The notes beneath the pieces are model-generated. The model was given only the letters and a program-made list of their open reading frames with translations. It did no database searches and was not told where the DNA came from. The position numbers and the translations under genes are program-made. Source: Siderastrea siderea (lineage: Eukaryota; Cnidaria; Anthozoa; Scleractinia; Rhizangiidae). Taken from it: a stretch of 64,000 nt of DNA. Where the stretch lies: contig OZ034968.1 in NCBI GenBank assembly GCA_964030785.1, positions 21,235,186 through 21,299,185 of the forward strand. The letters are read 5' to 3'. This document shows, one piece after another, positions 44,903 through 63,495 of the stretch (position 1 is its first letter; each line of letters opens with the position of its first letter).

Positions 44903-46100
44903 GTAAAAAGCACTCCGTAGCGCTTTTCTGTCTTTCTTCCATGGCGTACAAGCATGGGGCCAAAGTAATCAACACCGGTGTTCGTGAACGGCGGTTGCTG
45001 ATAGCCCAGTCTCGAACTGGGCAGGTCAGCCATGACGGGTGGTTCGGGTTTTGCCCGTTGTCTTCGACACGATGGGCAGCTGGACGAAATCTTCTGAACT
45101 GTGGCTAGCCCTTTCAGGATCCAGTACTTCTGTCTCAGCTCGTTCAAGACATGCTTGTTACTTGTACAGTACAAACGGAGATGGTGGTGCATCACAATAA
45201 GGCGCGTTATTTCGTGCTTCGGGTCCAGAATCAAAGGATGTCGTGTCTCTTCAGGAACGGGGGCTTTGCCTAGACGACCACTTACCCTCAAGCATTCTGC
45301 TTCGTCAATGTATGGTCTAAGCGCATTGAGTCGGCTCTTAACTGGCATACGCTTGTTTGCCTTTAAGGCTTCAAAGTCTAGACTAAACGAGTCTCTTTGA
45401 CTTTTCCGTACGGCAATCAACTCTGCATTGCTGATTTCTGCAGCGGTTAGAGACGACAGGATGCGGCCCTCAGCCTTTCTTTTACAGTTTTGGACGAAAC
45501 GACATATCCATGCAAGGACACGACGGAATCTTGTCCAAGAGGAGAACTTCTCTGGGTCTGGAAAGTATGCTCTTGGATCAGTAACAGATGCATGGCCTGA
45601 CCACTTTGTGTTCTTCACTTCGACATCATTTTCACGGAGAGAACCAAACGTGTCTTGGGGCCACTGTTCTTCGGGTTTGGACAAGAAGGCGGGGCCGTTA
45701 AGCCATCGGCAATGTTTATCCAAATCTGCCGCCCGAAGACCTCGGGTGCAATCGTCAGCAGGGTTCAAAAGGCCAGGGACGTGTCTCCACTGCTTCGGGT
45801 CGGCTGCATCATGAATCTCTGACACCCGGTTGGCTACAAATGTGTGAAAGCGTCGGCTTTCATTAGATATGTACTGCAACACAGTTTTCGAGTCACTCCA
45901 AAAGATGGTGTCCTTGATAGTAACAGTCAACTCCTGCTTGACCAGGTTGTATAATCTTACGGCTAGGACGGCAGCTTGAAGCTCTAGACGAGGAATGCTT
46001 AACTGCTTCAAGGGTGCAACGCGATTCCTTGCCATAACAAACGAAACCTCAATTGTACCATCAGGAAGTGAGTATCTAGCATAACACACGGCACCAAAGC
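44851..46100 (-). pseudogene. BEL/Pao pol, RNase H to integrase zinc finger (cut by the Polinton)
   Basis: Carries the RNase H region (RLELQAAVLAVRL, FWSDSKTVLQ and a VPGLLNPADDCTRG segment), then an H2C2 integrase zinc finger (HHHLRLY...CPSC) and the first integrase Asp (GVDYFGP). At 46100 the frame meets the Polinton. The matching upstream coding sequence resumes at 63848. The frame on the two sides is compatible once one copy of the 6-bp target is counted. Confidence 0.93.
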
Positions 46101-46557
46101 AGTAGTTATATAGTTGGGGGTACCAGCGCATTTTTTCAAAATGCTCTGGAAACCAAACCCAACTATGAAACTACTTTCCATTTGATGGAATCTATATATT
46201 TTTCCATTTAATAGAATCTATATGTTTTTATTTCATATGGAAATCTATATATGTTTCCATATCATGGAAATCTATATGTTTTTATTTCATGTGGAAACGA
46301 ACACATTTTCCATTGCGTGACTTCATACAACAGGAAGTCTTAAAATTCTTAGAAAAACAGGAAGTCTTATTCTCGGAAAAGCAGACAGTCTTAAGATTAT
46401 CAGAAAACAGGAAGTTTATGATGTAATGGGACTTTTCCGAAGAAATGAGTCATCAGATTTCTATTGTGATACTTGTAAGATTTAGACCAACACAGCTGTG
46501 TCGTGACGTCATCACTAATAGCTATTGTGTCAATGTTATGAGACGATCGTATGATAT
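46101..46557 (+). repeat. Polinton left terminal inverted repeat
   Basis: About 457 bp matching the complement of 63496-63847. The outer 260 bp or so are nearly identical. Further in, the left copy has about 100 bp absent from the right copy: extra AACAGGAAGT units and a relic of the 3' end of the neighbouring gene at 46453-46512. The outer part contains a run of repeats alternating TTTCCAT and ATAGATTTCC. Confidence 0.95.
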
Positions 46558-46646
46558 TGCTCAACCAATGAAAATTGACAATCTCTTGGTAAATAAGATA
46601 AGGGAAATTCACTGAACATATCATTACGAGTCATTCAGTTAAAGCA

Positions 46647-47495
46647 ATGGCTGAAAGTGAATCCGGTATATCTAATTTGATGGAGGACATGGATTTAGAG
46701 GATATGGATACTGGCTATGAACAGGATTTTGACGTCGAAATAATCGATGGATTTCATCATCAATACATGGCTTACATGAACGATAAGGTGAGATCATTTG
46801 CTCAGTATTGGATGCAGATGTATTCAGACTGTTGTTTACAACGTGACTATGCGATGGAATTACTGAACGATAACAAGCCTGAAGACGCCAAAGTTGTTCT
46901 TCGCAGTTTTCCAAATACAGAAATAGCGCCAAATATTCCACAACTGTTGTTCGAGACTGAAGAAACAAAACGGAAGAAGATAAAACGTTCAGCGGCTGAG
47001 GTTGAATCCGATGGCTTGTCACTTGTACGGGAAATGAAAGATAATTATATTAGAGGACAAATGTTGCACTTCGATGTCCCCAACGTCTTTCCGGAAGGTG
47101 AAATGAGCCTTATCGACTATGAGAAGCATTTGAAACAATGTCATGACTCTTTCAGAACGATTGATAATTATGTAGTTAAAAATGCTTTCCTGTATGGTAA
47201 GTGGCTAAGTCAAGCTTTCGACAAGTTTCAAGAAGAAAAGGCAAAACAACGAGTAGGTGGTAACTTTGACGACTGGGTCAATTCACGGTGTAAGGTTAAA
47301 CAAACCCGTGCACGGCAACTCAGAAAGTTTTATAAGCAATTATCGCCATACAAAAAAGTTTGTAGATGCACACTGCCTTTAAAATGGTTTTTGGTTAATG
47401 GTTATACTATTAGGAAGTATTTTGAAGAACACAGAGAGGTCGCAATACCATGGACCCATGAAATAGATTGCTTTTGTGATACCTGTAAGATTTAG
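46647..47495 (+). CDS. Polinton protein of unknown function, possible DNA-binding
   Basis: 282 residues. Acidic N-terminus, then a helical protein with a basic KKIKRS segment near residue 110. A region near residues 190-230 (GKWLSQAFDKFQ..FDDWVN..VKQTRARQLRKFYKQL) loosely resembles the GEWL..WL..S.RTAQRY pattern of phage DUF3102-like helix-turn-helix proteins; that is inference. It ends in a Cys pair (CFCDTCKI). It lies just inside the left TIR and is convergent with PolB. It lacks the start-proximal motif of the late genes, so it may be an early or regulatory gene. A copy of its 3' end lies in the left TIR. Confidence 0.75.
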   Translation: MAESESGISNLMEDMDLEDMDTGYEQDFDVEIIDGFHHQYMAYMNDKVRSFAQYWMQMYSDCCLQRDYAMELLNDNKPEDAKVVLRSFPNTEIAPNIPQLLFETEETKRKKIKRSAAEVESDGLSLVREMKDNYIRGQMLHFDVPNVFPEGEMSLIDYEKHLKQCHDSFRTIDNYVVKNAFLYGKWLSQAFDKFQEEKAKQRVGGNFDDWVNSRCKVKQTRARQLRKFYKQLSPYKKVCRCTLPLKWFLVNGYTIRKYFEEHREVAIPWTHEIDCFCDTCKI

Positions 47496-47592
47496 ACCGA
47501 CACAGCTGTGTCGTGACGTCATGTTGTAGTATCATGAAAATAATGTCTCATATAATAGTATAGAATGATGAGTTTAAGAAAGAAATATTATT

Positions 47593-50500
47593 TTAGTTTT
47601 TGATTGCATAATGTCCGTAAGCGAAACTATTGATTCCATCGTTTGCTATATATCGTTTATCATCGAAACAGCTGAGTGACACTTTATTGAGCTCAAAACT
47701 ACCTAGTTGATGATTGATACTTCTGATTGTTTTCATGGTATGATGCATTTGTTTGTTATTAAATAGTACTTCTTTATAATCTTCATGTTTGATATTGTTC
47801 TTTATTATGTTCTTCTTGATTCCCTTGGCTGTTTTTCCCACTTTCTGGTTGTCTTTTATGTAACTGTACATTTTTGATCGCAAACCGACGAATTCAGTTA
47901 TTGGTATTCCAGCTGCTTCATCTTTGAATTTACCGATTACCTTCTTGTTTGTCTTATCGAAATACGTAGAGTTTTCTGGATAGTCGCTGTTGTCAAATCT
48001 ATCTTTGTCATTCCAAAAGTCTTGGTACACATCTTCAGCTTCAATCTCATATGTTAGACTGTCTGTGTCAGTGAATAGTAGTCTAGCCTTATTACCATAC
48101 TTTTCTTTTATGTAGTTATAATGAAAATCATACATTAATGTCTTACTTAGATCAAGAATACACATACCCACATATGCCGGCCTGTTTAGAGTTAGCGTTT
48201 CTTTGATCTTATGCACTGCTACCAGATTTTCATTGAATATCTTACTGCTTACATAAGTTGGTTTAGAAGCCATCTTCAATAGTTTCTTCTCATCTGTAAT
48301 AAGTCTGACATCGACACGCTTTCTTATGTTCTCCATTGTCTTTCCAAACACTGAGTTATTCATTAGTTTGAAGAAGTCTTTTTCGAATGAATTTTTTGCT
48401 CGTGTACGTTTTTGTGTGTTGAAGTCGATATATTGTTTGAGCCATGGTGACTGATGAAATTCTAATACTCTATGCACTTTCTTTACTTTCAATCCAAGAT
48501 CAAGATACAACTGTAGATTTCTATAGTGTAGGACATATTTTTCTTTGTCACATAAAGTAGGGATCAGTTTGTGTACTAGTCCCGTTGAAATATTGAATTT
48601 GTTTTGTATTTTCTTGCAATAATCGGATAACATGTTATCAGTTACTTTCACTTTTTCTGGACCTAGAGGATAGTCATTATGTAGGTCATGCAACTCTTTG
48701 GGGTATTCTAGATCAACTTCTAATATTAATCCCTTCTTGCAGTCATCATTGTATTTTGCTAAGTTGATTTTATTTATTTGTTTTTCCGTCAACCATTTGA
48801 AACCACCAGTGGGGAGATATTGACTCATAGCCCAACCGTATAAATTATTAGCATCAAGGTACATAATATACTTTGAGGGCGCCTTCTCGTCGTATTCTCT
48901 CATGTACTTATTGTTTGCTTTTCCATATCGATTGGCAATATAAGATATACCACCACGCATGCCTTTTTCAATAAATTGATACATGTCTATGTCTGTCATT
49001 AGTTCTAGTTGAATATTGGTCATTTTTAGCATAGCATCCCATGACAAACCAGGAGATGTGAAATAATGACATGGATCAAGTTTATAATACTGAAGACAGG
49101 TCTTACGGAAGTTTTCAAAAACATCTACTAATAGGAGAACGTCTGATTTTAAATACAAGTCATGATACTCACCCATATTTTTAAGATTGAATGTCTCCCA
49201 AACAATCCGAGCATGTTTATATTCATCATCTGAAATATTCTCATTATTCAAGATACTAAAAAATTCATCTTTTGTTGGTAGTTTTGTTTTATCGAATTTT
49301 TCAAAACTGTCCATGAAATCGTACGGATAAATACCTTTTTTCCTCATCAATTCGAATTTTTCTTTTTTGAATTTTTTGCTTGTATATTTGAAAGCTTCTG
49401 CCGGCAAATTACTGACTAATTTATCCAAACTTGAGCTCATAAACTGGAAACTATCAATGAAGGTAAGATGATTACCAAGCATGAAAGCCATATATTTTTC
49501 CATATTGTTTGGTATGGCATTGATATTCATTTGTTTCTCCTCTCCTTTCTTATTTTTGTATGCATGTTTCTTAACAATAGCTCCAATCTCTTGCATTATA
49601 AAATGACTGTCATAACCTCTTAGATTATGGAATATAACAGGAATTTTGATTTCTTCTGGATTTATTCTAAGTTTCAGATTACAGTCTTGATGTGCTGAGC
49701 CTCTGTATTTGCCAGTAATATGGCAATGATCTCTGACTCGAATGTCTTTTTCAGTATATTTTTTATCGCAGATGTGACATTCTTTTGCTTTTTCGAATTC
49801 CTCTTCATCCTCTTTCGTCATTTTCAATGGTTTGTTAAAAAATGTTTTAATTACTTTTTTACAGTATTTTACTTCTTCTAACATATTTTCCATGAATTTG
49901 TACACAGCCTTTTCGCCTCTATATATTTGTATTGGTTTTGTATGCTTATCATCATAACAACAAATGACCTTATACCCATAACCACAGTCTGTGTGTTTTT
50001 GATAGGCTTCAGTATATGATGAATCATTATTCTGTTGACATCCTTGAATCTTCTCTGTTATAGCCTCAAAATCAGCATAGATAACAAATGACACAGGTTG
50101 CTGCTTATGAAAATTATTGAATTTCAGTATGTTATTATCTTTAGTTGGCATATTTACTGCTTGTGTTCCATTTACTTGAATGCAATTATCTTTATGATTG
50201 TTTAATACTCTTTCAGAACTGAAACATTGCAGACAGTGCATACAAAAGTGTTTCCTCTCTTTGTGTTTTGTTTGATTGTACATGAATTTATTGAAATCCT
50301 TTATGAGAACATAATGCTTGTTTTCATCTTTCGTTACTAGTAGTAGTTCCATATGATCTTCATACTTTTCTTTGGAAACATAGATGGGATACGGTTGTCT
50401 GTCTTCATATCCGAATACGTTTATATTGATACTGTTTTGCTTCTCAATTTTGTTGAACTGCTTAATAGTTACTGGAAAATCAATGTTTGAATAATCTAAC

Positions 50501-51348
50501 TTTTCAACGTATTGTCTATCGGCTTTTTTGATTCTTTGAGGATTCTTGTCTTGCGGATTCAAATGTCTAATGTGACACCATCGGAAGCATTCATTATCCT
50601 CGTTTTTGATGTTGATTAATCCTTTCGCACTGTTCTGTAGTTCTTTTGACAGTTTGATATAAGATGATCCTTTCAAGGGCTTGTATTTCACTATGTTGAG
50701 GTAATGACTATCAACTGATTTAATTGTCCAACCAGATCCTTCTGATATCCATTGAGCTATCTTATTCAGTATCTGTTGTTTTGATGATTGTAATGAATCA
50801 GCGATTTCCATTTGGTTGATTATTGTTTGAGGTGTACTATTGAAATATGCTAACTTTTCAACTATTTCATCAGCTGAATTTTTTTCGAAAGTGACTTTCA
50901 ATGTTTCAACGTATTTCAAGCCTTTCATTTCATTCAATAAAGTTATTACACGATGTTCTATAACCTTTCTCGTGTTTTGCATTTGGGCTAAGGGGTCTTT
51001 ATTGTTTTTGATGCTGATTTCATAAGACTTAGTGTAACCTTTTAAAGCTTTGTCTGTTTGTTCTATTTTGGTTCTTGGTGCTGGAACTGGTTTGTATGTT
51101 CTTGGTGCTGGAACTGGTTTGTTGTCTTCATAATCTTGAACCATCTGCTTAACACTCTTTCGAGGTGTTGGTACTGGTGGTCTTGGTTTATAAGTCCTTG
51201 GTGCTGGAACTGGTTTGGTATCATCTACCACAATAATTTTAGGCTTCTTTTTCTCTTGCTTTAATAGCAATTTGATAAGTTCTGATTTGCTGAGTTTCTT
51301 CAAACTAGCTTCATCCATATCTATAAGGTTAGATTTTTTTGATTTCAT
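47593..51348 (-). CDS. polB: Protein-primed family B DNA polymerase (Polinton PolB)
   Basis: 1251 residues. In order: a Pro-rich linker with KPVPAPRTYKP repeats (about residues 45-95), a C2H2-like finger (CMHCLQCF..H..C, near 370-390), exonuclease motifs FVIYADFEA (near 425) and a VIFHNLRGYDSHF segment, an HNH-like DHCHITGKYRG zinc site typical of Polinton polymerases, then palm motifs DANNLYGWAMSQ, NNSVFGKTMEN and FTDTDSL. All catalytic motifs look intact. It replicates the linear element by protein priming from the TIR ends. The start ATG at 51348 follows an (AT)n tract. The PAPRT repeats resemble SH3-ligand sequences but may be only a flexible linker. Confidence 0.97.
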   Translation of the reverse strand: MKSKKSNLIDMDEASLKKLSKSELIKLLLKQEKKKPKIIVVDDTKPVPAPRTYKPRPPVPTPRKSVKQMVQDYEDNKPVPAPRTYKPVPAPRTKIEQTDKALKGYTKSYEISIKNNKDPLAQMQNTRKVIEHRVITLLNEMKGLKYVETLKVTFEKNSADEIVEKLAYFNSTPQTIINQMEIADSLQSSKQQILNKIAQWISEGSGWTIKSVDSHYLNIVKYKPLKGSSYIKLSKELQNSAKGLINIKNEDNECFRWCHIRHLNPQDKNPQRIKKADRQYVEKLDYSNIDFPVTIKQFNKIEKQNSININVFGYEDRQPYPIYVSKEKYEDHMELLLVTKDENKHYVLIKDFNKFMYNQTKHKERKHFCMHCLQCFSSERVLNNHKDNCIQVNGTQAVNMPTKDNNILKFNNFHKQQPVSFVIYADFEAITEKIQGCQQNNDSSYTEAYQKHTDCGYGYKVICCYDDKHTKPIQIYRGEKAVYKFMENMLEEVKYCKKVIKTFFNKPLKMTKEDEEEFEKAKECHICDKKYTEKDIRVRDHCHITGKYRGSAHQDCNLKLRINPEEIKIPVIFHNLRGYDSHFIMQEIGAIVKKHAYKNKKGEEKQMNINAIPNNMEKYMAFMLGNHLTFIDSFQFMSSSLDKLVSNLPAEAFKYTSKKFKKEKFELMRKKGIYPYDFMDSFEKFDKTKLPTKDEFFSILNNENISDDEYKHARIVWETFNLKNMGEYHDLYLKSDVLLLVDVFENFRKTCLQYYKLDPCHYFTSPGLSWDAMLKMTNIQLELMTDIDMYQFIEKGMRGGISYIANRYGKANNKYMREYDEKAPSKYIMYLDANNLYGWAMSQYLPTGGFKWLTEKQINKINLAKYNDDCKKGLILEVDLEYPKELHDLHNDYPLGPEKVKVTDNMLSDYCKKIQNKFNISTGLVHKLIPTLCDKEKYVLHYRNLQLYLDLGLKVKKVHRVLEFHQSPWLKQYIDFNTQKRTRAKNSFEKDFFKLMNNSVFGKTMENIRKRVDVRLITDEKKLLKMASKPTYVSSKIFNENLVAVHKIKETLTLNRPAYVGMCILDLSKTLMYDFHYNYIKEKYGNKARLLFTDTDSLTYEIEAEDVYQDFWNDKDRFDNSDYPENSTYFDKTNKKVIGKFKDEAAGIPITEFVGLRSKMYSYIKDNQKVGKTAKGIKKNIIKNNIKHEDYKEVLFNNKQMHHTMKTIRSINHQLGSFELNKVSLSCFDDKRYIANDGINSFAYGHYAIKN

Positions 51349-51498
51349 TATATATATATACTATAGATTTTATTTTTAAGTGTCTATAATTAGTGTGTTT
51401 AAACGTGGTCATGAATTCAAATGATCCAATCATGGATCTTTCGAACTATATCGAAAAATTTTATATTTTGCGTATGTTATTATTTCCCATCAGTTCAT

Positions 51499-51771
51499 TT
51501 ATACATTATTTGTTGTATCAAAGACATCATTTTTAATATATTGTATCCATTCTTTTCTAATCATTGATTCTAAATTTATATCATGACTTTTTTTATGCTT
51601 TTTTGTTTTCAAGTGACAAGATTTCCCAGCCAATGTGTAATTTTTACCATTTTTGCAAACATCACAATACCACTCTTTATTTAACATATAGGTAGTCTTA
51701 TGATTTTTTCTTTCCTCGTCACTAAAAACTTTAGGTCTTCCACGACCTATTTTAACATTTTGATTTTCCAT
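51499..51771 (-). CDS. AT-hook and C2H2 zinc-finger protein
   Basis: 90 residues. An AT-hook core (GRGRPK) near residue 9 is followed by one C2H2-type finger (CDVC...HLKTKKH). Both suggest a small DNA-binding protein acting on AT-rich DNA, plausibly the element's own promoters or ends. It starts after an (AT)n tract, sits between PolB and the DUF5754-like gene on the same strand, and is intact. Confidence 0.8.
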   Translation of the reverse strand: MENQNVKIGRGRPKVFSDEERKNHKTTYMLNKEWYCDVCKNGKNYTLAGKSCHLKTKKHKKSHDINLESMIRKEWIQYIKNDVFDTTNNV

Positions 51772-51830
51772 ATATATAATATATATATATTTATTCTTAA
51801 GTATCTATGACTAGTGCGTTTTAAACCTGT

Positions 51831-52127
51831 TCACCATAGAAGTTGATAGCTCCAGAAATTTGCTGAATTCTTATCTTTGTATGTTAGGTTACCATATTTG
51901 TCTTTTATCTTAGATGCTCTCTTTCGGTATAGTGCATGTCTTTTCAAGTCTTTATGTATTAAAAAATCCTCATATCTATTATCACCAAAATGGATTTTAT
52001 TATTATTTTTAAGAGTGACCACATATTTTTTGTTCTTACGATCTGAATAATCAAGATCTTTTGCTCCATATAAATCTCGGGCTCTTTGCCTCAATAAATC
52101 AAAATCTTTACCAGTTACGGTATTCAT
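51831..52127 (-). CDS. DUF5754-like small protein
   Basis: 98 residues, with a KKYVVTLKNNNKIHFGD core, an RYEDFLIHKD segment and a C-terminal FWSYQLLW. This pattern matches the small DUF5754 family that I recall from nucleocytoplasmic large DNA viruses and related elements. Function unknown. Its ATG is preceded by TATATAACC and AATTATATG, the shared start motif. The family call is from memory. Confidence 0.75.
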   Translation of the reverse strand: MNTVTGKDFDLLRQRARDLYGAKDLDYSDRKNKKYVVTLKNNNKIHFGDNRYEDFLIHKDLKRHALYRKRASKIKDKYGNLTYKDKNSANFWSYQLLW

Positions 52128-52264
52128 ATAATTAGGTTATATATTTAGGTTATATATTTATAATAGCCAGAAACAATGATATTTTTGGCTACAAAATAGC
52201 AAATAAACAGTATATACTGTATCGATTGATATAATATATGTTAGATAATTCTCTTTAAAACATT

Positions 52265-53272
52265 TTATATATCTTTCAAGTCCTTCATTGGAATCCAACT
52301 GTTGAAGTAATCACTATATCCCTTCCACTTAACTAAAGCTTGTTTCTTCTTATAATCCCTCCGAATGACTTTATCAATTCTGAATACCTCTTGTTTTGCT
52401 TTTAATAATTCAGGTTCATAAAAACTCCCTTGAATGTCTTCACCTCTGAGATCCTTTAGTTTGTAAGTTATTGGATTTGTATATTGGATTTTATCAACTG
52501 TAAAAACTTCCTCAGACCAATTTGGTGTATAGCCCTTATCAAACACATTCCGTTTATACTTACTTATTCTAACCTTATCACCTATTTTGAATTTCGGTTT
52601 GGATGATACTTGCTCCAAATTACCATACAGATTAAAGTAAACAGTCCCTTCATTCTTCTTTTTACTGGCTTCTGTCGGCGTCATTTTGATAGAGCTATGT
52701 TTAGTGTTGTTATACTGTTTCACTAATTTGGGTAGCATGTCTAAATACTGTGTATTACCTTGAACAGTAAACTGTTTCCACATTTTGGTTTTTATTGTAC
52801 GGTTCCATCTTTCACAAATTGAAGACTTTTCCTCATTCTCAGTTGAGTACAATGTTATTTTATTCTTTTCTAAGAGGTCTTTCATGTGTTTGTTGTAATA
52901 CTCTTTACCTTTGTCTGTCCATAAATATTCCGGTTTTCTACCTTCTTTTAAAATGGTTTTCAATGCTTCAGCAACAGTTTCACCCTTTTTATCTTTTAAT
53001 GGGACGATCCAACCATATTTAGAGAATACATCTAAAACCATAAGAAGATATCTGTAGCCATCATTCCATCGACTAAACTGTTGCATCTCAACAAGATCAG
53101 AGCACCATATTTCATCAATATGATTTACAATAACACGCCGCCGGGTGAAGTTACGCTTTATCGGTTTATGTAATTCATCAGCTAATTCTTTTTGCCAGTT
53201 TTCTTCACTCGACGGCCTTTTCCGTTTTTTGTCTTCCTTTGTTTTACACCAAGACCTAGTTTCTGCTTTGTG
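52265..53272 (-). CDS. int: Retroviral-type (rve) integrase with chromodomain, probably made by -1 frameshifting
   Basis: The frame is open from 53272 to a stop at 52265. The first catalytic Asp lies in the WCSDLVEM segment, four residues upstream of the first ATG in frame (53086). The second Asp (LWTDKG) and the Glu (ICERWN) follow, then an SH3-like barrel and a C-terminal chromodomain (ALVKWKGYSDYFNSWIP). Starting at 53086 would remove a catalytic residue, so translation must enter from upstream. The upstream PLA2 frame overlaps by 91 nt and holds a slippery A AAA AAC (53230-53224) that shifts exactly into this frame. The enzyme would insert element ends, giving the 6-bp target duplication. 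A non-AUG start or a spliced mRNA is an alternative. Confidence 0.93.
   Translation of the reverse strand, partial: HKAETRSWCKTKEDKKRKRPSSEENWQKELADELHKPIKRNFTRRRVIVNHIDEIWCSDLVEMQQFSRWNDGYRYLLMVLDVFSKYGWIVPLKDKKGETVAEALKTILKEGRKPEYLWTDKGKEYYNKHMKDLLEKNKITLYSTENEEKSSICERWNRTIKTKMWKQFTVQGNTQYLDMLPKLVKQYNNTKHSSIKMTPTEASKKKNEGTVYFNLYGNLEQVSSKPKFKIGDKVRISKYKRNVFDKGYTPNWSEEVFTVDKIQYTNPITYKLKDLRGEDIQGSFYEPELLKAKQEVFRIDKVIRRDYKKKQALVKWKGYSDYFNSWIPMKDLKDI
53137..53230 (-). promoter_or_regulatory. Candidate -1 frameshift signal 2: A AAA AAC, 7-nt spacer, 14-position stem
   Basis: The heptamer at 53230-53224 is in phase with the PLA2 frame. After 7 nt, GCCGTCGAGTGAAG (53216-53203) can pair with CTTCACCCGGCGGC (53150-53137): 13 of 14 positions pair, with one G-U and one A-C mismatch, closing a 52-nt loop. 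The -1 product is the integrase frame. Confidence 0.78.
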
Positions 53273-53805
53273 TTAATCAAGAACCGAGCGGTTTGTCCCC
53301 ATTTTGGCATCTGTCCATAAGGTATTCCATCCAATGACTTGACCATTTGTTTGTCACATTCACCTTTGTTTTTCCCCATATCATAACAAATATCATGATA
53401 AGCTGCTATTGTATCCACTTTATTGTAAGGTTGTACGTGCCACTTGGTGACCTCTCCAGTGTTCCTATTATACTCTAACTGTTTATCGAGAGGGTTGTAT
53501 GGTCCCATGTATTTATACTTTCCAGGAGTCCAGCCTGATTTTGGTTTGGGTAGCATTCCGATGGCTTTATGTATATCAATGCCAGATCCTCTATAGTAAT
53601 CAACATTATCCTTAACACCTTTGAATGCTTGACCTGCTAAAATCCTTCCTAAAGCAGCGAAACTAGGAGCAGGTGTGACAAAATTGGATAATATATAAGC
53701 AATTTTATCAAGTGCTGTTGGACCCTTTTTTCTTGCTAAAGCACTACCTATTTGCCCGCCCTTTTGAGACGGGCTATCCCGTTTCCCGCGTTTTGTTTGA
53801 CAAAT
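53182..53805 (-). CDS. Parvovirus-VP1-like phospholipase A2 domain protein, no start codon of its own at the true N-terminus
   Basis: Open from 53805 to the stop at 53182 (207 codons). N-terminal part: basic/hydrophobic segments (ALARKKG, FAALGRILAGQAFKG). Then the PLA2 core: a Ca-binding loop YMGPYNPLD, the catalytic HD pair in AAYHDICYDM, and a downstream CDKQM. It ends with a basic tail. In parvoviruses this domain breaches endosomal membranes on entry; the same virion role is inferred here. The only ATG before the PLA2 core (53556) would drop about 80 residues that are clearly coding. The preceding zinc-ribbon frame enters this one by -1 at G GGA AAC (53787-53781). Confidence 0.88.
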   Translation of the reverse strand: MCQTKRGKRDSPSQKGGQIGSALARKKGPTALDKIAYILSNFVTPAPSFAALGRILAGQAFKGVKDNVDYYRGSGIDIHKAIGMLPKPKSGWTPGKYKYMGPYNPLDKQLEYNRNTGEVTKWHVQPYNKVDTIAAYHDICYDMGKNKGECDKQMVKSLDGIPYGQMPKWGQTARFLINTKQKLGLGVKQRKTKNGKGRRVKKTGKKN

Positions 53806-53936
53806 TTAGTCTTAGTAATTCCACATTCAGCACAAGTGCATTTCATCATGGTTCGCCCGTTTTTGGTTTTTATATATCTTTCACTACCCGGTACACATAG
53901 AGTGACCTTTTTCTGTTTGACACAATAAGATTCCAT
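53748..53936 (-). CDS. Zinc-ribbon protein (DUF5679-like), first frame of the frameshifted unit
   Basis: 62 residues from an ATG preceded by the shared start motif. The zinc-ribbon-like sequence begins SYCVKQKK and has a KCTCAECGITKTKF knuckle, as in DUF5679-type proteins; the second Cys of the first pair is replaced by Gln. It is a paralogue of the protein at 53958-54359, matching over about 45 residues. After the shared KTKFVK the paralogue continues directly, while here a GC-rich stretch (about 26 nt) carries the slippery site and stem and the frame stops soon after. This is probably the upstream product of a frameshifted polyprotein. Confidence 0.8.
   Translation of the reverse strand: MESYCVKQKKVTLCVPGSERYIKTKNGRTMMKCTCAECGITKTKFVKQNAGNGIARLKRAGK
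53750..53787 (-). promoter_or_regulatory. Candidate -1 frameshift signal 1: G GGA AAC, 6-nt spacer, GC stem
   Basis: The heptamer at 53787-53781 is aligned X XXY YYZ to the zinc-ribbon frame. After a 6-nt spacer (GGGATA), GCCCG (53774-53770) can pair with CGGGC (53758-53754); GCCC/GGGC and GGG/CCC pairings compete, leaving room for a pseudoknot. The -1 frame opens at 53805 and the zero frame stops at 53748, so the signal sits in a 58-nt overlap. It is GC-rich within AT-rich DNA. Confidence 0.75.
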
Positions 53937-53960
53937 ATATAATATGATTAGATTAGATTA
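53937..53960 (-). promoter_or_regulatory. Start-proximal motif of the zinc-ribbon/PLA2/integrase unit
   Basis: A doubled TCTAATCTAATC (near 53958-53947), then ATATTATATATG. No such motif precedes the PLA2 or integrase frames, in line with one shared initiation site. Confidence 0.5.
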
Positions 53961-54359
53961 AGGTTCGATATATACGTTTATATATTTGCCCGTTTTTGGA
54001 TTTTTCACCAAGCGCATAACAGTACCCTTCTTTGGTTTAGTCCAGAATTTCTTGCTTGTTAAACCAGTTTTATTATTAAAAGCACCTTTCAAAATATCAC
54101 CACTCCAATATCTGTCAAATACATGGTTGGTTGATGGAATTACTTTGCGAGTTATTTGTTCGGCTATTTTGGCTGCCTCGAAAGCTTTACCTAATGGATT
54201 TTCACCTCCCTTTTGGCTTTTAACAAATTTCGTCTTAGTGATTCCACATTCAGAGCATTTGCATTTCAACATCAGTCTGTTATTTTTGGCTCTCACATAT
54301 CTTTCACTCCCTGGAACACATTCTGTGACCTTTTTTTGTTTCACACAATATGATCTCAT
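53958..54359 (-). CDS. Zinc-ribbon basic protein (DUF5679-like paralogue)
   Basis: 133 residues. The N-terminal zinc ribbon is paralogous to that at 53748-53936 (YCVKQKK, KCKCSECGITKTKF), followed by a helical segment and a basic C-terminus ending KYINVYIEP. It is complete, with its own start motif (ATCTAACTCATATATATTATG). Likely a small virion or nucleoprotein component; in related adintovirus-type genomes such ribbons occur near capsid genes (recalled, not searched). Confidence 0.78.
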   Translation of the reverse strand: MRSYCVKQKKVTECVPGSERYVRAKNNRLMLKCKCSECGITKTKFVKSQKGGENPLGKAFEAAKIAEQITRKVIPSTNHVFDRYWSGDILKGAFNNKTGLTSKKFWTKPKKGTVMRLVKNPKTGKYINVYIEP

Positions 54360-54378
54360 AATATATATGAGTTAGATA
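54360..54378 (-). promoter_or_regulatory. Start-proximal motif of the zinc-ribbon paralogue gene
   Basis: TATCTAAC at 54378-54371, then TCATATATATTATG. Confidence 0.55.
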
Positions 54379-55730
54379 TTTTTAAAATACCGTTCTAAGA
54401 ATTTTTCATTCTTCATTGTATCATGTATGTCAAACACTTTCAATAGATTAAAATATGATTTGCCCTTATTCATCGAATTCAGAAAGTATAAACAGAAATA
54501 TCCACATTTTATTGAATTGATATTTTGTATTTGGTTATTTTGATGAAGAAGTGTTAAGTTCTTTTTTCTCGCATGATTGACCATTTCTTGGAAGGGAGGC
54601 AAACCAAAGCTATCAAAGTAATTAATGACTTTGTCCTTAACATAAGTAGCTACCCAATGACTCCCTGACATATAACTCGGTTCAAGATTGTAAATGAATA
54701 GAGCCTGTCGATGATTGTGAGGAACATTTTCATCTCTTGACAATACATCATTAATTGGGATATTCAGATATTTACACCATTTTATTAAATCATAATTGCT
54801 TAATGGGACATTCTTATGGAATTTTGGTTTTACAACAAAATGTTTAACAGTGGGACGTTTTTGAAGGGTGAATTTTTCCCTAGTAGAAGACCCTCTCCTT
54901 TTTTTTTGTTTTTTTTTTGTTTTTTTAGTCCCCATACCGATTGTACCGTCCGGCCAATTTCCATAAAAAGGCGGTGTTCTATAAGTTGGGATTAACAAAC
55001 CACCATCCTGATTATCATTATTATCATTGGTTGGTTTTGGTATAGATCTGGGTGGTCTTTGTTTCGGTTGTCCCATCTGAGGGGCACCTTTACCAGTCAT
55101 CTTCTTTATTGCCTCAATAGCTAAAGGGACTCCAATTGATGCAAGAAGAGTACCTAAGAACCCACCCGTTTGTACTTTTGTTGGTTTTATATGAACACCA
55201 GAACCTGTTTGTAGAGCATTTAATATATCCTTCTTTTGTTTGGTGGTCAAAAGATGTTTATATGTTATCAACTGATCGATTTTATTTTGTGGTATGAGGA
55301 ACCCACCGGTTTGAACACCTTTTCCGGATATCTTCTTAACAATCTGAGATGCTCCTTCACTAGCTGCTCCAGCTAAAGCTGACAAACCGATGGTCTTAGC
55401 AATAGTGGGACCAAAAGTTCTTCCAAGCGTCAGAACTGTAGACAGAAGAGATCCACCTACTTGCTTTCGAATGTTTGTTTTAGAAAGTTTAATGTCCATT
55501 CCCTTTTTCAATTTTCTATTTTTATCCAGTCGCTTAACTATATTCTGAGGTACATACAGAGTGTCATTCCCAGATAGAGAGTCCTTCGTGAGCCTTAGAA
55601 CTATTGTTTCTCTTTTATGATACGCGTTACTAAGATTCTTTTTCTGGTTTGGTGATAAACTAACTTTGATTTCGTATAGTTGCGTCATATAATATATGTT
55701 AGATAAATTCTCTTTTAAAAAACACATCAT
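54372..55730 (-). CDS. Fusion of membrane-active/core protein with adenain-like cysteine protease
   Basis: 452 residues from the first ATG; the likely start is Met15 (55688), which follows the shared start motif and begins MTQLYEI. N-terminal domain: a conserved YEIKVSLSPNQ segment, then Gly-rich hydrophobic helices at about 92-130 and 189-215 (FLGTLLASIGVPLAIEAIKK, melittin-like). A basic linker (KKTKKKQKKRRG, 269-280) follows, then the Ulp1/adenain protease (about 303-452) with His358 (GSHW), Asp373 (YFDSFG), Gln402 and Cys409 (KCGYFC). The protease would mature capsid proteins and the N-terminal part may disrupt membranes. In Polintons these are usually separate genes, so this could be a self-processing fusion. 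Confidence 0.9.
   Translation of the reverse strand: MMCFLKENLSNIYYMTQLYEIKVSLSPNQKKNLSNAYHKRETIVLRLTKDSLSGNDTLYVPQNIVKRLDKNRKLKKGMDIKLSKTNIRKQVGGSLLSTVLTLGRTFGPTIAKTIGLSALAGAASEGASQIVKKISGKGVQTGGFLIPQNKIDQLITYKHLLTTKQKKDILNALQTGSGVHIKPTKVQTGGFLGTLLASIGVPLAIEAIKKMTGKGAPQMGQPKQRPPRSIPKPTNDNNDNQDGGLLIPTYRTPPFYGNWPDGTIGMGTKKTKKKQKKRRGSSTREKFTLQKRPTVKHFVVKPKFHKNVPLSNYDLIKWCKYLNIPINDVLSRDENVPHNHRQALFIYNLEPSYMSGSHWVATYVKDKVINYFDSFGLPPFQEMVNHARKKNLTLLHQNNQIQNINSIKCGYFCLYFLNSMNKGKSYFNLLKVFDIHDTMKNEKFLERYFKNI
55689..55708 (-). promoter_or_regulatory. Start-proximal motif of the protease-fusion gene
   Basis: TATCTAAC at 55705-55698, then ATATATTATATG; supports Met15 as the true start. Confidence 0.55.
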
Positions 55731-55764
55731 TTAAATTTTCATCGATGTTAAAAAACTTATTCAT

Positions 55765-57054
55765 TTAAACTATCATCAATTCGTTTCCAATTGTCTTAAC
55801 AACAACCTCACTCTCGTAAAATACGATGCTATGAGCTCGGACGTTTGCTGTCGGGGCTACATTGAGACGATAATGGAGAATCAACTGTTTAGGATCTCTT
55901 GTCACTACCTCTTTTTGATATGTCAAATCGAAATATATTAATCCGTACAAACTAGTGAAATTTGCTATATTCAATTGTGTCCCTGAATTGTAATCGTTTT
56001 TACGAAAGGCATAGCTCATGAGATCATTAAAGATTCTAATTTTAGAATCACTGTCATATTCTAATTCCGGATAGAAAGTATTGTTTCCATACTCTAAACG
56101 ACAACTCGATAGAGAGCTATTAGCGTCCGCAGCATTTAACTTGAAGGTGTCAAACAAATATGGACTCCTCTCTGCTTCATCATCATTCGGTCCATCCGTT
56201 CTCTGTAGATATATAAAAACATGTTTAACGTTATCGATAGCTGGACTAATTTGGAACATATTTTGAATAGCTCTGGTATTCGCTGACTGATTGTAGAGAT
56301 CTCGCATATATGTCCAGGTTGTTGGCTTAAGAAACTCTGAAACGAAATTACTATACATGCTGTCTTTTGGGATTAATCTAGGGAGCCAAAGATACAATCT
56401 CTTTACTACAACACGACCAGCGTCTGTGCCATTTGCCATGTGAATCATTTCACTGTCTTCGTTAAATGTAAGTTCAATTGTGAGCTGCATCGGGGGCAAC
56501 ATTTTTCTTTCTAATTCTTGGAAATAGCTGTATCTGTTTAACGGAATCATCTCGTTATTACTTTTAGCTCCTCCGCCGCCGTTATTCTGATGAGCCTGGG
56601 TTAAAATGCGACGGGCCTCGAAACCTGTGTTTATATCTGCTGTCGTATTATCATTGTCAAGATACCAAAACTGGTTTTTGGCCACACTTCTTGAATAATC
56701 ATCACTGTATTCAAGTAAATTTTTAACATTCGTAATTCTATGTAAATTATCACTCTCGTATACTATTTTACCAGACGATTTAATAACCATATGTCTGATT
56801 AGACTGTGAGATCCGTTTATCATAGTGATGCGATCCGCTTGAGCATATCCAGTACCATCTGCCTTTTTTTGAAGCTCTTTAGTTACTTCGAAATACCCAT
56901 TAAAAAAATCGAACAATGTCGACCTATCGTTGATTGTGAATCTGTAACCTGTCTTTTTCTGGCTTTGATTGTTAGCAGGTTGCTCAATGACATTATCCAA
57001 ATGGAAACGAACGTATTCATATCGTTGCAGATTTTCATTTGTTCTGAAACTCAT
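55765..57054 (-). CDS. Major capsid protein (double jelly-roll, hexon-like)
   Basis: 429 residues in the capsid cluster. The pattern fits the Polinton major capsid protein: a beta-rich start, an FFNGYFEVTKEL segment, a HSLIRHMVIKSSGKIVYE strand pair, an NVKNLLEYSDDY helix, and a C-terminal half with YLFDTFKLN and LIYFDLTYQ strands. Double-jelly-roll proteins form pseudohexameric capsomers of icosahedral virions. It is intact and starts after TTTATCTAAAC..ATATAAATG. The call rests on position, length and remembered family features; structure prediction would settle it. Confidence 0.85.
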   Translation of the reverse strand: MSFRTNENLQRYEYVRFHLDNVIEQPANNQSQKKTGYRFTINDRSTLFDFFNGYFEVTKELQKKADGTGYAQADRITMINGSHSLIRHMVIKSSGKIVYESDNLHRITNVKNLLEYSDDYSRSVAKNQFWYLDNDNTTADINTGFEARRILTQAHQNNGGGGAKSNNEMIPLNRYSYFQELERKMLPPMQLTIELTFNEDSEMIHMANGTDAGRVVVKRLYLWLPRLIPKDSMYSNFVSEFLKPTTWTYMRDLYNQSANTRAIQNMFQISPAIDNVKHVFIYLQRTDGPNDDEAERSPYLFDTFKLNAADANSSLSSCRLEYGNNTFYPELEYDSDSKIRIFNDLMSYAFRKNDYNSGTQLNIANFTSLYGLIYFDLTYQKEVVTRDPKQLILHYRLNVAPTANVRAHSIVFYESEVVVKTIGNELMIV

Positions 57055-57077
57055 TTATATGAGTAGTTTAGATAAAA
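57055..57077 (-). promoter_or_regulatory. Start-proximal motif of the major capsid gene
   Basis: TATCTAAAC at 57074-57066, then CATATAAATG. Confidence 0.55.
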
Positions 57078-57152
57078 TTCACTCTTTATATAAACCATTT
57101 CCCACTTATTAGTCTATTTATAATTGGATAAAATTCACTTTTTAATAACATT

Positions 57153-57521
57153 TTATCGTCTTAATCCAGTACCAGATATACGTCTATTCAGAATTGTGTT
57201 GTAATCTTCTTGTTTTGGTTTAGTAGGTTTGGTTGGTTTCATGGTTTTATTCATTGATTGTTTAGTTGAACCGTGTAATTTTCTCATAATAAGCTCTCCG
57301 CGTTTTTCAGCTGCTTTTTTTCCCAGTTTGTCTCCAGCATGTGAAATACCAGATTCAAGCGCTTTTTTGGCAAAAGGTTTTAAAACCATTTCTGGAACTT
57401 TACTTAACACCCTTCCAACCGGTTTGAAAATGTTGTCAACAATGATCCCAGATCCTTTATGTTCATAAACAAATCGTCCAAGTTTTGGATGATAAATACG
57501 CTTGTATTCATACGACGACAT
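57153..57521 (-). CDS. Small basic virion-associated protein (hypothetical)
   Basis: 122 residues. After an N-terminal YHPKLGRFVYEHKGSGI segment come amphipathic basic helices (about 35-85) and a Pro/Lys-rich TKPTKPTKP linker. Its place between major and minor capsid genes, with the same strand and start motif, points to a packaged minor protein, perhaps DNA-condensing or membrane-interacting. I do not recognise a named family. Confidence 0.75.
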   Translation of the reverse strand: MSSYEYKRIYHPKLGRFVYEHKGSGIIVDNIFKPVGRVLSKVPEMVLKPFAKKALESGISHAGDKLGKKAAEKRGELIMRKLHGSTKQSMNKTMKPTKPTKPKQEDYNTILNRRISGTGLRR

Positions 57522-57543
57522 ATATAACTATTAGTTAGATTAA
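57522..57543 (-). promoter_or_regulatory. Start-proximal motif of the small basic protein gene
   Basis: AATCTAAC (57541-57534), then TTATATATG. It overlaps the stop codon of the penton gene, so the late genes are packed tightly. Confidence 0.55.
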
Positions 57544-58301
57544 TCTCTCTTCTCTCTTAAAATCAAACTGAATGAAGTGTCACTATGATTAAGATCTATG
57601 ATTCTTCGTTTACCGTCGGTGATATAAATCCGAATTTTATTAATCGTATTTTTATTGACAGGATTGAACTGTACTCGTCTTGGCTCTTGTGTGAAACTAT
57701 AACTCGGGGTGAGAGTTGAGGTACTGAAACTATATATAATATCCGTTTCATCACCATCAACTAGACTTTCGGATATGAGGTCACTATGAATATTGAGAAT
57801 TTCTCTGTCTTGACTCAAATTCGGTATGTAATCACCAACATTTTCAGCATTAGTTAAAACCTGTTTATTGAAGCCAATTAAATCATTGAAATCGGATACA
57901 GTCAGATCTAATCTATAATTTGTGGCTAATGTGATTATTGTGCGAAATATTGTATCGTCGAATTCGAGACTGATCGGATATGACGGATTGTTAGCTGTTC
58001 CTGTTTTAGTATTATCCTTTAAAAAATTATTGAAATCGACATAGTTCCATACACCAGGATTGAATATCAACTCTGTCCAATTAGTACCACTATCAGACGA
58101 AAATCTTATTTTCTGATTATTGAGTTCTTTTGTCACATTAAACCAAGTAAATGACATCGAAATGATTCGGTCGAGGCCGATTTCATATTGTCGATTCGGA
58201 TCGAGAATTATCGGATTGATGTATTTGATTATGAAATCACTCGGTTTATTACCATTCTTGTCTCTGACTGAATGGGATGATAAGATAAGTTGTCTATCCA
58301 T
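57540..58301 (-). CDS. Minor capsid protein (penton-like, single jelly-roll)
   Basis: 253 residues. Beta-rich throughout, with the Polinton minor capsid pattern: an N-terminal DFIIKYINPI segment, internal strands, and a conserved C-terminal block containing LTPSYSFTQEPRR and a RIYITDGKRRIIDLN strand. Single-jelly-roll pentons occupy the fivefold vertices. It is adjacent to the major capsid cluster and intact. Its start follows TTTATGTAAACTAATCATATAATG. Confidence 0.88.
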   Translation of the reverse strand: MDRQLILSSHSVRDKNGNKPSDFIIKYINPIILDPNRQYEIGLDRIISMSFTWFNVTKELNNQKIRFSSDSGTNWTELIFNPGVWNYVDFNNFLKDNTKTGTANNPSYPISLEFDDTIFRTIITLATNYRLDLTVSDFNDLIGFNKQVLTNAENVGDYIPNLSQDREILNIHSDLISESLVDGDETDIIYSFSTSTLTPSYSFTQEPRRVQFNPVNKNTINKIRIYITDGKRRIIDLNHSDTSFSLILREKRD

Positions 58302-58320
58302 TATATGATTAGTTTACATA
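58302..58320 (-). promoter_or_regulatory. Start-proximal motif of the penton gene
   Basis: TGTAAAC at 58318-58312, then ATCATATAATG. Confidence 0.55.
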
Positions 58321-59300
58321 AAATAGTTTTTGTATATTTTGTTATATTGCGACCTGTTCAAAATAGAGTTTTTCAACAAGATGTCGAGAAGAGCGACGCC
58401 TGTATTCCGTAGTTCGATGCTATTATTACCGGCAACCATCGAACCGATGATTATTTCCAGTTTTTTCATCATTTCTGTCGGATTGTTGAAAAACTGGACT
58501 TGTCCACCTCTTTTTATTTTTTTCTTCAAACCAGATCCTTTAATATTTTTCAGTCTTTGATTATTGTAATTTATATATTCATTTAATACTTTTCTCGTAT
58601 CATTAATGACCTTTCTTCGATATTGAGCCTCAGCTTCAGTGATTGAACCATTATTTAATTTTTTAGTGATATCAGTCGAATAGCCAGTTAGTTGTTTCCG
58701 TTTATCTTTAGCTTTCTTCAGGGTCTTGGTAAGATAAGCTTTCCTTTTATCGTCATTCATATCTTCTTGTTTGAGTCGTAATTCGACGTCTTCATAATTC
58801 GGTATTTCAAGTTCATCCAAAACTTGGTTAATTGCATCCTCCTCGAGAATGTTATAATCAGGTCCTTCTTCTTCGTATTCAGGTGGAAGATCTTCAGGTT
58901 CATACATAAATGCTGGATCTATATACATTTGTTTTTCACCTGATGCTAAATCCTTAAGGACATCTTCATAACTTGGAGGTTTTGGAACCAATTGTTTGTC
59001 ATTTTGTGGTAGAACTTGATCACCAAATAGATCTTCCAATCCATAATCAGGCACTTCATCATCAATAGCTATTCCATAATCTGGAACAGGTCGCTTTTTC
59101 TTTGGTAATCTTCTCAATGGCATTTTTGGAGATGTGAGTTCCTTTAACTCAGATGTTATAGGTTTGAAAAGTTTCTCTGCCTCGACTTCACCCATTTGAT
59201 CAGATATCGTTTTTTGTTTTATTGTCTCTCTTATTGTGTTAGTCTTTTTACCAAGCTCGGATCGTTTCTCAGCCATTTCTTTCCATTTGAGTAAACTCAT
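58314..59300 (-). CDS. Virion-associated protein with two PPxY late-domain motifs
   Basis: 328 residues. A charged N-terminal helix, a central acidic region with repeated PDYG, PPSY at about 108-111 (KPPSYEDVL) and PPEY at about 139-142, then a coiled-coil-like stretch (170-245) and a conserved C-terminal helical domain (FFNNPTEMMKKLEIIIGSMVAGN). PPxY motifs recruit Nedd4-type ubiquitin ligases, as in adenovirus protein VI and retroviral Gag; a role in virion trafficking is inferred. It begins the minus-strand structural block and diverges from the ATPase gene. Confidence 0.82.
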   Translation of the reverse strand: MSLLKWKEMAEKRSELGKKTNTIRETIKQKTISDQMGEVEAEKLFKPITSELKELTSPKMPLRRLPKKKRPVPDYGIAIDDEVPDYGLEDLFGDQVLPQNDKQLVPKPPSYEDVLKDLASGEKQMYIDPAFMYEPEDLPPEYEEEGPDYNILEEDAINQVLDELEIPNYEDVELRLKQEDMNDDKRKAYLTKTLKKAKDKRKQLTGYSTDITKKLNNGSITEAEAQYRRKVINDTRKVLNEYINYNNQRLKNIKGSGLKKKIKRGGQVQFFNNPTEMMKKLEIIIGSMVAGNNSIELRNTGVALLDILLKNSILNRSQYNKIYKNYFM

Positions 59301-59319
59301 TATATCATTTGTTTACATA
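59301..59319 (-). promoter_or_regulatory. Start-proximal motif of the PPxY gene
   Basis: TGTAAAC at 59317-59311, then AATGATATAATG. Nearly the same as at the penton gene. Confidence 0.55.
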
Positions 59320-59370
59320 AAATTTCGTATTTTGTTTGGAAAAATTAGGGTTATCATATATAAAAACGCT

Positions 59371-59406
59371 CGCATAGCATGTCGCATAGCGTGCCGCATA
59401 GCGTGT
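59371..59406. repeat. Three tandem 12-bp repeats in the divergent spacer
   Basis: CGCATAGCATGT, CGCATAGCGTGC and CGCATAGCGTGT follow one another without gaps, then a partial inverted match (CATGCG). They stand out as GC-rich in the 140-bp AT-rich spacer between the PPxY and ATPase genes, a natural place for a bidirectional regulatory element. Confidence 0.85.
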
Positions 59407-59440
59407 CACCATGCGATAAAATTGTATAACATAATATCAT

Positions 59441-60082
59441 ATGAAGATTCAAAATTACGACATTCAAGATGATGAAAATGACGATTTTGTTCAATTAAAG
59501 AGTTTCATGCCAAACCGATGTTTTAGGATGCTCGTTTGTGCTCCATCTGGTGGCGGCAAGACCAACCTTCTGCTTGATATGATCTACAGGCTCTTATACT
59601 TTGACAAGATATACCTTTATGCTCGCAATCTATCCCAAAGCAAATATACATACCTTTTGGAGTCATTCAAACCAATATCAAAAGAGGTCGGCTATGATAT
59701 AATCGAAGCAAGTAATGATGACATCATCCCTTTAACAGATTTGTCTGATGAAAACCAAAAATTAGTCATATTTGATGATTATTTGAATACAGGTAAGAAA
59801 AATGACGAACGGATACGTGACTACTTTACCAATTCTAGGAACAAAAATTGTTGTTGTATATATCTGAGTCAAAGCTATTATGGAACCGATAAAACAATAA
59901 GACTGAATAGTTCACATTATTGCATATTCGATTTCCCATCAAGAAATGAACAATCCATGATTTGTAGAGAATTGGGTGTTAACAAAGAGGATTACCAAAA
60001 GGCTACTAAAGACCCATTCAGTTTTCTGTATGTTGATAAAATAAGAAAATCCAATGCCAAAAATTTCGATGAAAGAATATAA
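59441..60082 (+). CDS. FtsK/HerA-type genome-packaging ATPase
   Basis: 213 residues. Walker A APSGGGKT at residues 34-41 and Walker B LVIFDDY at 108-114; a Q/S-rich sensor region (CIYLSQSYYGTDKTIR) follows. The length and motifs match Polinton and NCLDV A32-like packaging ATPases, which pump the linear genome into the capsid. It is intact and starts at TTGTATAACATAATATCATATG. Confidence 0.96.
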   Translation: MKIQNYDIQDDENDDFVQLKSFMPNRCFRMLVCAPSGGGKTNLLLDMIYRLLYFDKIYLYARNLSQSKYTYLLESFKPISKEVGYDIIEASNDDIIPLTDLSDENQKLVIFDDYLNTGKKNDERIRDYFTNSRNKNCCCIYLSQSYYGTDKTIRLNSSHYCIFDFPSRNEQSMICRELGVNKEDYQKATKDPFSFLYVDKIRKSNAKNFDERI

Positions 60083-60093
60083 CCCAATATTAT

Positions 60094-61782: not shown

Positions 61783-61789
61783 AAAGTTG

Positions 61790-62197: not shown

Positions 62198-62212
62198 TAT
62201 AAACAATATAAT

Positions 62213-62326
62213 ATGAAAACATCAACTTTAATCAACGAAATTATTGAGAATATAGAAAAAATAGTTCGAAACATCAGAAAATTATACATTAGTATTAAGA
62301 AATCGTTTAAAAAAGAAAAAATGTAA
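62213..62326 (+). CDS. Small 37-residue basic peptide
   Basis: ATG at 62213 is preceded by TATAAAC and AATATAATATG, the same start motif as the large genes, and the frame ends at 62326. It is an amphipathic Ile/Lys-rich helix (KLYISIKKSFKKEK) with no known family. The motif is the main reason to accept it as real. Confidence 0.5.
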   Translation: MKTSTLINEIIENIEKIVRNIRKLYISIKKSFKKEKM

Positions 62327-62339
62327 CCATATAATATAT

Positions 62340-63390: not shown

Positions 63391-63495
63391 TTCTATACTT
63401 TTATATGAGATAATATTTTATATCAAAACGCAACAACTTCTAATATTTTTATCAGAAAAAAATAATATATGGGTAAGTCTTTGATTGATCTAGAA

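Follow-up and report, generated by a model that had tools for sequence, protein, structure and literature searches.

Two successive −1 ribosomal frameshifts very probably join zinc-ribbon, phospholipase A2 and integrase frames in a Polinton-type element of the coral Siderastrea siderea

A 64,000-nucleotide (nt) stretch of the Siderastrea siderea genome (contig OZ034968.1; hereafter the window, to which all coordinates refer) contains a complete Polinton-type DNA element. Within this element the unit analyzed here, located at 52265–53936 on the minus strand, consists of three consecutive overlapping frames that encode a zinc-ribbon protein (ZnR), a parvovirus-type phospholipase A2 (PLA2) and an rve-type integrase (INT). 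Comparison of the unit with its copies in the same genome and with relatives in other assemblies indicates that two successive −1 programmed ribosomal frameshifts very probably join ZnR, PLA2 and INT as one translation unit. This supports the double-frameshift reading proposed in the initial annotation of the window, as the order of the frames, the heptamers and their place recur in tens of genome copies and, at the protein level, in relatives.

Results

Three Overlapping Frames with a Slippery Heptamer in Each Overlap

The element, the unit and its candidate recoding signals are as follows.

46101–63846: whole Polinton-type element, 17,746 bp; both terminal inverted repeats present, target-site duplication of 6 bp (CAAAGC)
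53748–53936, minus strand: frame 1, ZnR open reading frame (ORF), 62 amino acids (aa) plus stop, AT-rich start context; weak DUF5679 match
53182–53805, minus strand: frame 2, parvovirus-type PLA2 open frame (PF08398), first ATG at residue 84
52265–53272, minus strand: frame 3, rve integrase with chromodomain (PF00665, PF00385), no ATG until after the first catalytic Asp
53781–53787, minus strand: slippery heptamer 1, G GGA AAC in the ZnR phase, conserved among copies
53775–53780, minus strand: spacer 1, 6 nt
53754–53774, minus strand: hairpin 1, predicted, 8 bp with a 5-nt loop in the window
53224–53230, minus strand: slippery heptamer 2, A AAA AAC in the PLA2 phase, conserved among copies
53217–53223, minus strand: spacer 2, 7 nt
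53137–53216, minus strand: long-range stem 2, predicted, arms 53203–53216 and 53137–53150
53958–54359, minus strand: ZnR paralog in a single frame with no heptamer at the matching place, an internal contrast

The ZnR and PLA2 frames overlap by 58 nt and the PLA2 and INT frames by 91 nt, with each frame lying at −1 relative to its predecessor. The ZnR frame matches DUF5679 with an E value of 9.4e-4, under the Pfam cut-off, while the PLA2 frame matches PF08398 (E 5.7e-8) and the INT frame matches both the rve core (PF00665, E 8.9e-12) and the chromodomain (PF00385, E 2.9e-7). Against solved structures, the INT profile matches retroviral and retroelement integrases, and the PLA2 profile returns chance-level matches only. 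Among the three frames, ZnR alone combines an ATG with the AT-rich start context that, by eye, precedes most other genes of the element. The PLA2 frame reaches its first ATG at residue 84, ahead of the calcium loop (residue 99) and the His-Asp pair (residue 137), with coding sequence upstream of it. The INT frame contains Asp59, Asp120 and Glu154, the last two separated by 33 residues, which from their positions and the typical motif we take to be the catalytic residues, and its first ATG falls just past Asp59. The layout put forward in the initial annotation, from the overlaps and the single good start to the in-phase heptamer, 6- or 7-nt spacer and stem at each overlap, is thus confirmed, the start context being judged by eye and the stems being folding predictions.

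GGGAAAC is the sole in-phase X XXY YYZ heptamer in the first overlap and AAAAAAC the sole one in the second. Six further ORFs on the element's minus strand hold 17 in-phase canonical heptamers in 2,852 codons, and none of these heptamers is GGGAAAC, AAAAAAC or TTTAAAC. Finding two heptamers in overlaps of ∼19 and ∼30 codons is therefore uncommon by chance, yet alone not compelling. The window sequence by itself is weak evidence, and the argument therefore depends on comparison with copies and relatives.

The Two Steps Recur in Copies of the Same Genome

The genome searched comprises 830.9 Mb in 402 contigs, with ∼812.6 Mb in the contigs numbered C1–C14, and the best 120 of 3,572 candidate INT matches were scored. 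Of 88 stretches fetched, 71 non-identical copies were callable; as these were picked as best matches to the INT or PLA2 queries, damaged copies are under-represented. The ZnR-to-PLA2 junction shows a −1 step together with an in-phase GGGAAAC in the called overlap in 61 of the 71 copies, and the PLA2-to-INT junction shows a −1 step with an in-phase AAAAAAC in 69. Among the 68 copies with a −1 step at the first junction, 45 have a ZnR/PLA2 overlap of 46 nt. A stop codon 6 nt upstream of heptamer 1 blocks the PLA2 frame in 47 of 66 copies that combine the step with GGGAAAC. In those copies the switch must fall close to the heptamer. In a second lineage, made up of L087, L092–L094, L096 and L097, the ZnR stop immediately follows GGGAAAC and the hairpin has a different spelling; L091 likewise stops directly after GGGAAAC and carries a third version of the hairpin.

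Listed Relatives in Other Assemblies Mostly Keep the Footprints of Both Heptamers

Protein searches found 792 PLA2, 313 ZnR and 7,134 INT relatives, and 120 of each were listed; the named matches include stony corals, Stylophora in the PLA2 search and Oculina in the INT search. These listed relatives mostly retain the amino acid footprints of both heptamers. The protein database appears to consist of ORF-caller output, with several entries opening with Met where longer relatives have Leu. Gly-Asn, the footprint of G GGA AAC, stands behind the ribbon in 111 of the 120 listed short ZnR proteins, which have 92 distinct tails; 15 of the 111 end exactly at Gly-Asn, some after quite different linkers, and at least one, P0163, looks coincidental. 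The nine without Gly-Asn comprise one substitution at that place (P0164) and eight proteins with another tail. Five ZnR relatives (P0177, P0185, P0216, P0229 and P0232) have a different linker of ∼30 residues and still end in Gly-Asn, which suggests that the slippery end may have been kept across an exchange of linkers.

Among the 120 listed PLA2 proteins, x-Lys-Asn occurs within the last 32 residues in 94, coincidentally in at least P0061 and P0081, while 12 have Gly-Leu-Asn-type ends, which at the protein level are compatible with TTTAAAC, and 4 continue into INT. In 9 of 35 relatives inspected the protein opens with Met-Trp or Met-Cys-Arg-Met-Trp, a stretch that corresponds to the ZnR codons in −1 reading; the PLA2 frame of these nine thus seems to lie at −1 as well. 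Viral contigs scanned with the integrase and with a PLA2 profile yielded no confirmed relative.

Each Frame Is Constrained in Its Own Codon Phase

Substitutions were analyzed in 66 aligned copies as mean diversity in ZnR phases 0/1/2. Ahead of heptamer 1 the values are 0.090/0.089/0.268, with the ZnR third position the most variable; between the two sites they are 0.124/0.255/0.167, phase 1 being the PLA2 third position; and after the PLA2 stop they are 0.202/0.064/0.021, phase 0 being the INT third position. In the 54 nt just ahead of heptamer 2, which are mostly open in the INT frame, the PLA2 phase is still the most variable. The substitution pattern shows each frame evolving as expected under purifying selection in its own codon phase. 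Heptamer 2 is intact in all 66 copies and heptamer 1 in 64, and the synonymous sites in both heptamers are invariant across the aligned copies. Runs of three invariant third positions elsewhere number 0 of 46 in ZnR and 3 of 170 in PLA2. Asn is written AAC at both heptamers, a codon used for 70 of 226 Asn residues in the six other ORFs.

Predicted Structures Downstream of the Heptamers

Stimulatory structures of −1 frameshift sites lie 5–9 nt downstream of the heptamer, and the predicted folds supply such a structure at both sites, with modest covariation for stem 1. In the window, stem 1 is predicted as an 8-bp hairpin of −14.5 kcal/mol, with z scores of −2.7, −1.8 and −1.3 in windows of 41, 61 and 81 nt, respectively. 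Throughout the main family the hairpin begins 6 nt downstream, and its 34 distinct versions are predicted at −10.0 to −17.4 kcal/mol. The hairpin of the second lineage is 14 bp long and spelled differently, with z below −5 in the two copies folded with shuffles; that of L091 gives z −2.2, and folds of four other copies give z −1.8 to −3.5. When 14 sequences, selected for their differences, are aligned in the corrected register, pairing holds in 95.9% of cells and both partners have changed in two of the pairs; 6 of 500 shuffles score as high.

Stem 2 is predicted as a long-range pairing of 7 + 6 bp around an A-C mismatch, closing a loop of ∼50 nt. In the window alone it is weak (z −1.5 at 101 nt, with no signal at 61 and 41 nt); across 45 distinct sequences 98.4% of cells pair, versus 27–51% when the pairing is slid. 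Because both arms are coding, stem 2 stands as a prediction.

A Model for Stepwise Frameshifting

In the model that this arrangement suggests, most ribosomes would end after the 62-residue ZnR protein, a fraction would slip −1 at GGGAAAC to give ZnR-PLA2, and a fraction of the latter would slip −1 again at AAAAAAC to give ZnR-PLA2-integrase, the three products likely being made in falling amounts (ZnR > ZnR-PLA2 > ZnR-PLA2-integrase). The joined protein may be processed by the putative adenain-like protease of the element, and the integrase would remain a minor product linked to a virion-type PLA2 protein. From the arrangement of frames and signals we infer slippage on ribosomes, its efficiency, the processing and the scarcity and packaging of the integrase, and likewise the virion role of PLA2. 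The motif Gln-x-Gly-Gly occurs four times in the protein with the putative protease (54372–55730), once in PLA2 behind site 1 and once in the ZnR paralog (53958–54359); at a guess, it is a possible processing or maturation site.

Weighing the Double Frameshift Against Other Readings

Several observations weigh against two successive frameshifts. Ten of the 71 copies lack the combination of −1 step and GGGAAAC: seven are damaged or mutated while keeping the −1 step, with PLA2 interrupted further down in L006, L015, L031 and L080, heptamer 1 mutated in L013 and the ZnR frame cut short in L055 and L062, and three (L002, L050 and L057) have a +1 relation between ZnR and PLA2. Two copies, L035 and L082, lack the −1 step with AAAAAAC. 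The copies are related to one another and were chosen as best matches, so their counts are not independent. For 6 of the 34 versions of hairpin 1 the predicted minimum lies in a neighboring register; covariation of stem 1 within the main family is slight, its score being reached by 46 of 500 shuffles, and the changes in stem 2 are nearly all one-sided, with no covariation beyond shuffles (62 of 500 reach its score). From heptamer 1 to the ZnR stop no phase dominates (0.091/0.094/0.118, with 11 sites each), and in the 42 nt from heptamer 2 to the PLA2 stop it is the PLA2 phase, not the INT phase, that varies most. The latter would be expected if most ribosomes end at that stop, a weak argument from 14 sites per phase. 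At the protein level, 10 of the 120 listed PLA2 C termini fit no pattern, one of them (P0105) ending in LRLN, with Leu-Asn.

Relatives in which the frames are fused also count against the double frameshift. ZnR and PLA2 share one frame in P0008, P0045, P0053, P0056 and P0069 among the 120 listed, or in 7 of 120 if P0032 and P0051 are counted from their first residues by eye. A PLA2-INT fusion is recognized by pattern in 33 of the 120 listed INT clusters, or in 34 when the listed PLA2 domain is included; at least one of these, P0318, is a deposited annotation that may be a spliced model. All three domains lie in one frame in P0244, P0268 and P0287. Some lineages can thus do without double shifting. 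Within the coral genome fused forms are rare among the best matches: open frames longer than 500 aa make up 2 of 120 and 2 of 119 of the best INT matches in two overlapping lists, and of the four fused copies two owe the fusion to deletions that damage PLA2 and two to minor length differences at or near the A run, as in L102, a natural single-frame copy that differs in the length of that run. The initial annotation had held that close relatives with a single uninterrupted frame and no heptamer would refute frameshifting. Single-frame fusions do exist, though few of the best matches in the genome are of this kind. Their domain order is unchanged, an argument for the joined protein as a real and viable product.

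PLA2 and INT could instead be separate genes with internal starts, at an upstream ATG in the −1 frame, at a non-AUG codon or by reinitiation, the heptamers being incidental. An ATG does occur in the short PLA2-frame stretch ahead of heptamer 1 in 6 of 66 genome copies and in the INT frame ahead of heptamer 2 in 14 of 70 (a set that includes L099, added by choice), so some copies could start internally, and some relatives have an ATG ahead of the heptamer that apparently stems from Glu-Cys-Gly or Lys-Trp-Gly codons read in the −1 frame, as deduced from the proteins. However, the window and most copies have no such ATG, those that exist would sit inside frames under ZnR or PLA2 selection, and neither the invariance of synonymous sites in both heptamers nor the short ZnR ORFs of other lineages that stop right at the heptamer footprint would be expected of incidental heptamers. 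We regard internal starts as very unlikely. Transcriptional slippage at the A run as the source of the PLA2-INT join, which the six A residues of AAAAAAC and the A-run length of single-frame L102 would suit, appears highly improbable, given that site 1 has no long homopolymer, that the two sites are built alike, each with an X XXY YYZ heptamer, a spacer and a stem, and that relatives have TTTAAAC-compatible ends at the same place, as seen at the protein level.

Since the host is a eukaryote, the frames might also be joined by splicing of the RNA. ZnR is coding up to its heptamer and PLA2 from within the overlap, which measures 46 nt in most copies, so that little room is left for an intron, and splicing would leave the heptamers and hairpins unexplained; we consider it exceedingly unlikely. 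Some genome copies are indeed damaged, with stops inside several matches and interrupted frames, as would be the case if the frame changes were indels of a dead element passed on to its copies. That reading, which a neutral pattern would have supported, is contradicted by the selection seen in each frame's own phase; both steps recur in most called copies, and both footprints persist among the relatives listed from other assemblies. Ordinary decay has next to no chance of accounting for the unit, and two programmed −1 frameshifts remain by far the preferred explanation.

Other Genes of the Element

Beyond the shifted unit, the element encodes an A32/FtsK-type packaging ATPase (PF04665, E 1.2e-8) and a protein with a weak similarity to the adenovirus-type protease (PF00770, E 0.011, under the cut-off). 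For the long ORF at 47593–51348, a candidate for the protein-primed DNA polymerase B, endonuclease VII matches alone rise above chance, with none in NCBIfam or the Protein Data Bank (PDB), and polymerase motifs are seen by eye only. The ORF at 55765–57054, a candidate double jelly-roll major capsid protein, has no family match in Pfam and NCBIfam profile searches. Downstream of the integrase lies a small minus-strand ORF (51831–52136) matching DUF5754 (E 7.1e-15), and the plus-strand ORF at 60094–61782 encodes a fiber-like protein with collagen triple-helix repeats (PF01391, E 2.2e-8). A minus-strand ORF at 62818–63390 resembles the poxvirus late transcription factor VLTF3 (E 2.9e-4, under the cut-off), and its product might read the AT-rich start motif. 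The element adjoins or lies inside a retroelement-like ORF (44090–46170, minus strand) that is BEL/Pao-like by eye.

Discussion

The unit resembles the Gag-Pro-Pol arrangement of beta- and deltaretroviruses in its two successive −1 shifts and in having the integrase in the last frame, retroviral integrase being encoded in Pol. It differs in that the coral element is a DNA element with terminal inverted repeats, whose first product is ZnR and whose second is PLA2. Profile searches of the shifted unit for Gag, protease and reverse transcriptase found none of these, and only ZnR (weakly), PLA2 and INT; the unit would thus work like Gag-Pro-Pol but is not Gag-Pro-Pol. In the IS3 family of insertion sequences a DDE recombinase is also made by −1 frameshifting, in that case with one shift at a bacterial heptamer and no PLA2 or capsid genes. 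The heptamers themselves are familiar from retroviruses: Table 1 of PMC3835772 gives GGGAAAC for Mason-Pfizer monkey virus (MPMV), Jaagsiekte sheep retrovirus (JSRV) and human endogenous retrovirus K10 (HERV-K10) and AAAAAAC for mouse mammary tumor virus (MMTV), human T-cell leukemia virus 1 (HTLV-1) and bovine leukemia virus (BLV), with double shifting stated, and its figure of 6–7 after these heptamers, which we take as the spacer length, agrees with the spacers seen here. In excerpts from PMC5009743, both heptamers are among the most shifty on mammalian ribosomes.

The element shares with Polintons/Mavericks and adintoviruses an rve integrase with chromodomain, an A32-type ATPase, terminal inverted repeats and the 6-bp duplication, and differs from them in that its integrase has, in the window, no ATG start of its own and forms the third frame of a shifted unit. 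PLA2-bearing capsid-like proteins have been described for Mavericks, according to part of PMC5803895. A hypothetical −1 frameshift, at a slippery site predicted by a program, is mentioned in part of PMC11071296 for some Penton ORFs of adintoviruses, at the 3′ end; as described there, that case concerns another gene and one site, yields an alternative C terminus and involves neither integrase nor double shifting. Among the open-licence PubMed Central (PMC) papers listed for Polintons and adintoviruses, none has, by its title and the start of its abstract, a frameshifted integrase or double shift in Polintons as its subject, and the parts of PMC12567637, PMC10675110 and PMC8363768 covered hold nothing on Polinton frameshifting. 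The initial annotation likewise knew of no double programmed frameshift described for a Polinton. Retroviruses already use this mechanism; among the papers covered, its occurrence in a Polinton-type element appears to be new.

It is possible, and we put it forward tentatively, that a Polinton-type DNA virus convergently evolved a double shift like that of Gag-Pro-Pol, with the integrase as a scarce C-terminal extension of a virion ZnR-PLA2 protein, the integrase being thereby dosed and brought into the new host cell in the particle. Double −1 shifting with integrase as the last product is a hallmark of retroviruses. Its conserved signature in a multicopy double-stranded DNA Polinton of an animal would, if true, mean that the same principle of gene dosage, with the same heptamers, arose independently. 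The missing start codon of the integrase in these elements, and its splitting or truncation by ORF callers, would thereby be accounted for. A single joined peptide would provide a test of whether virions carry the Polinton integrase.

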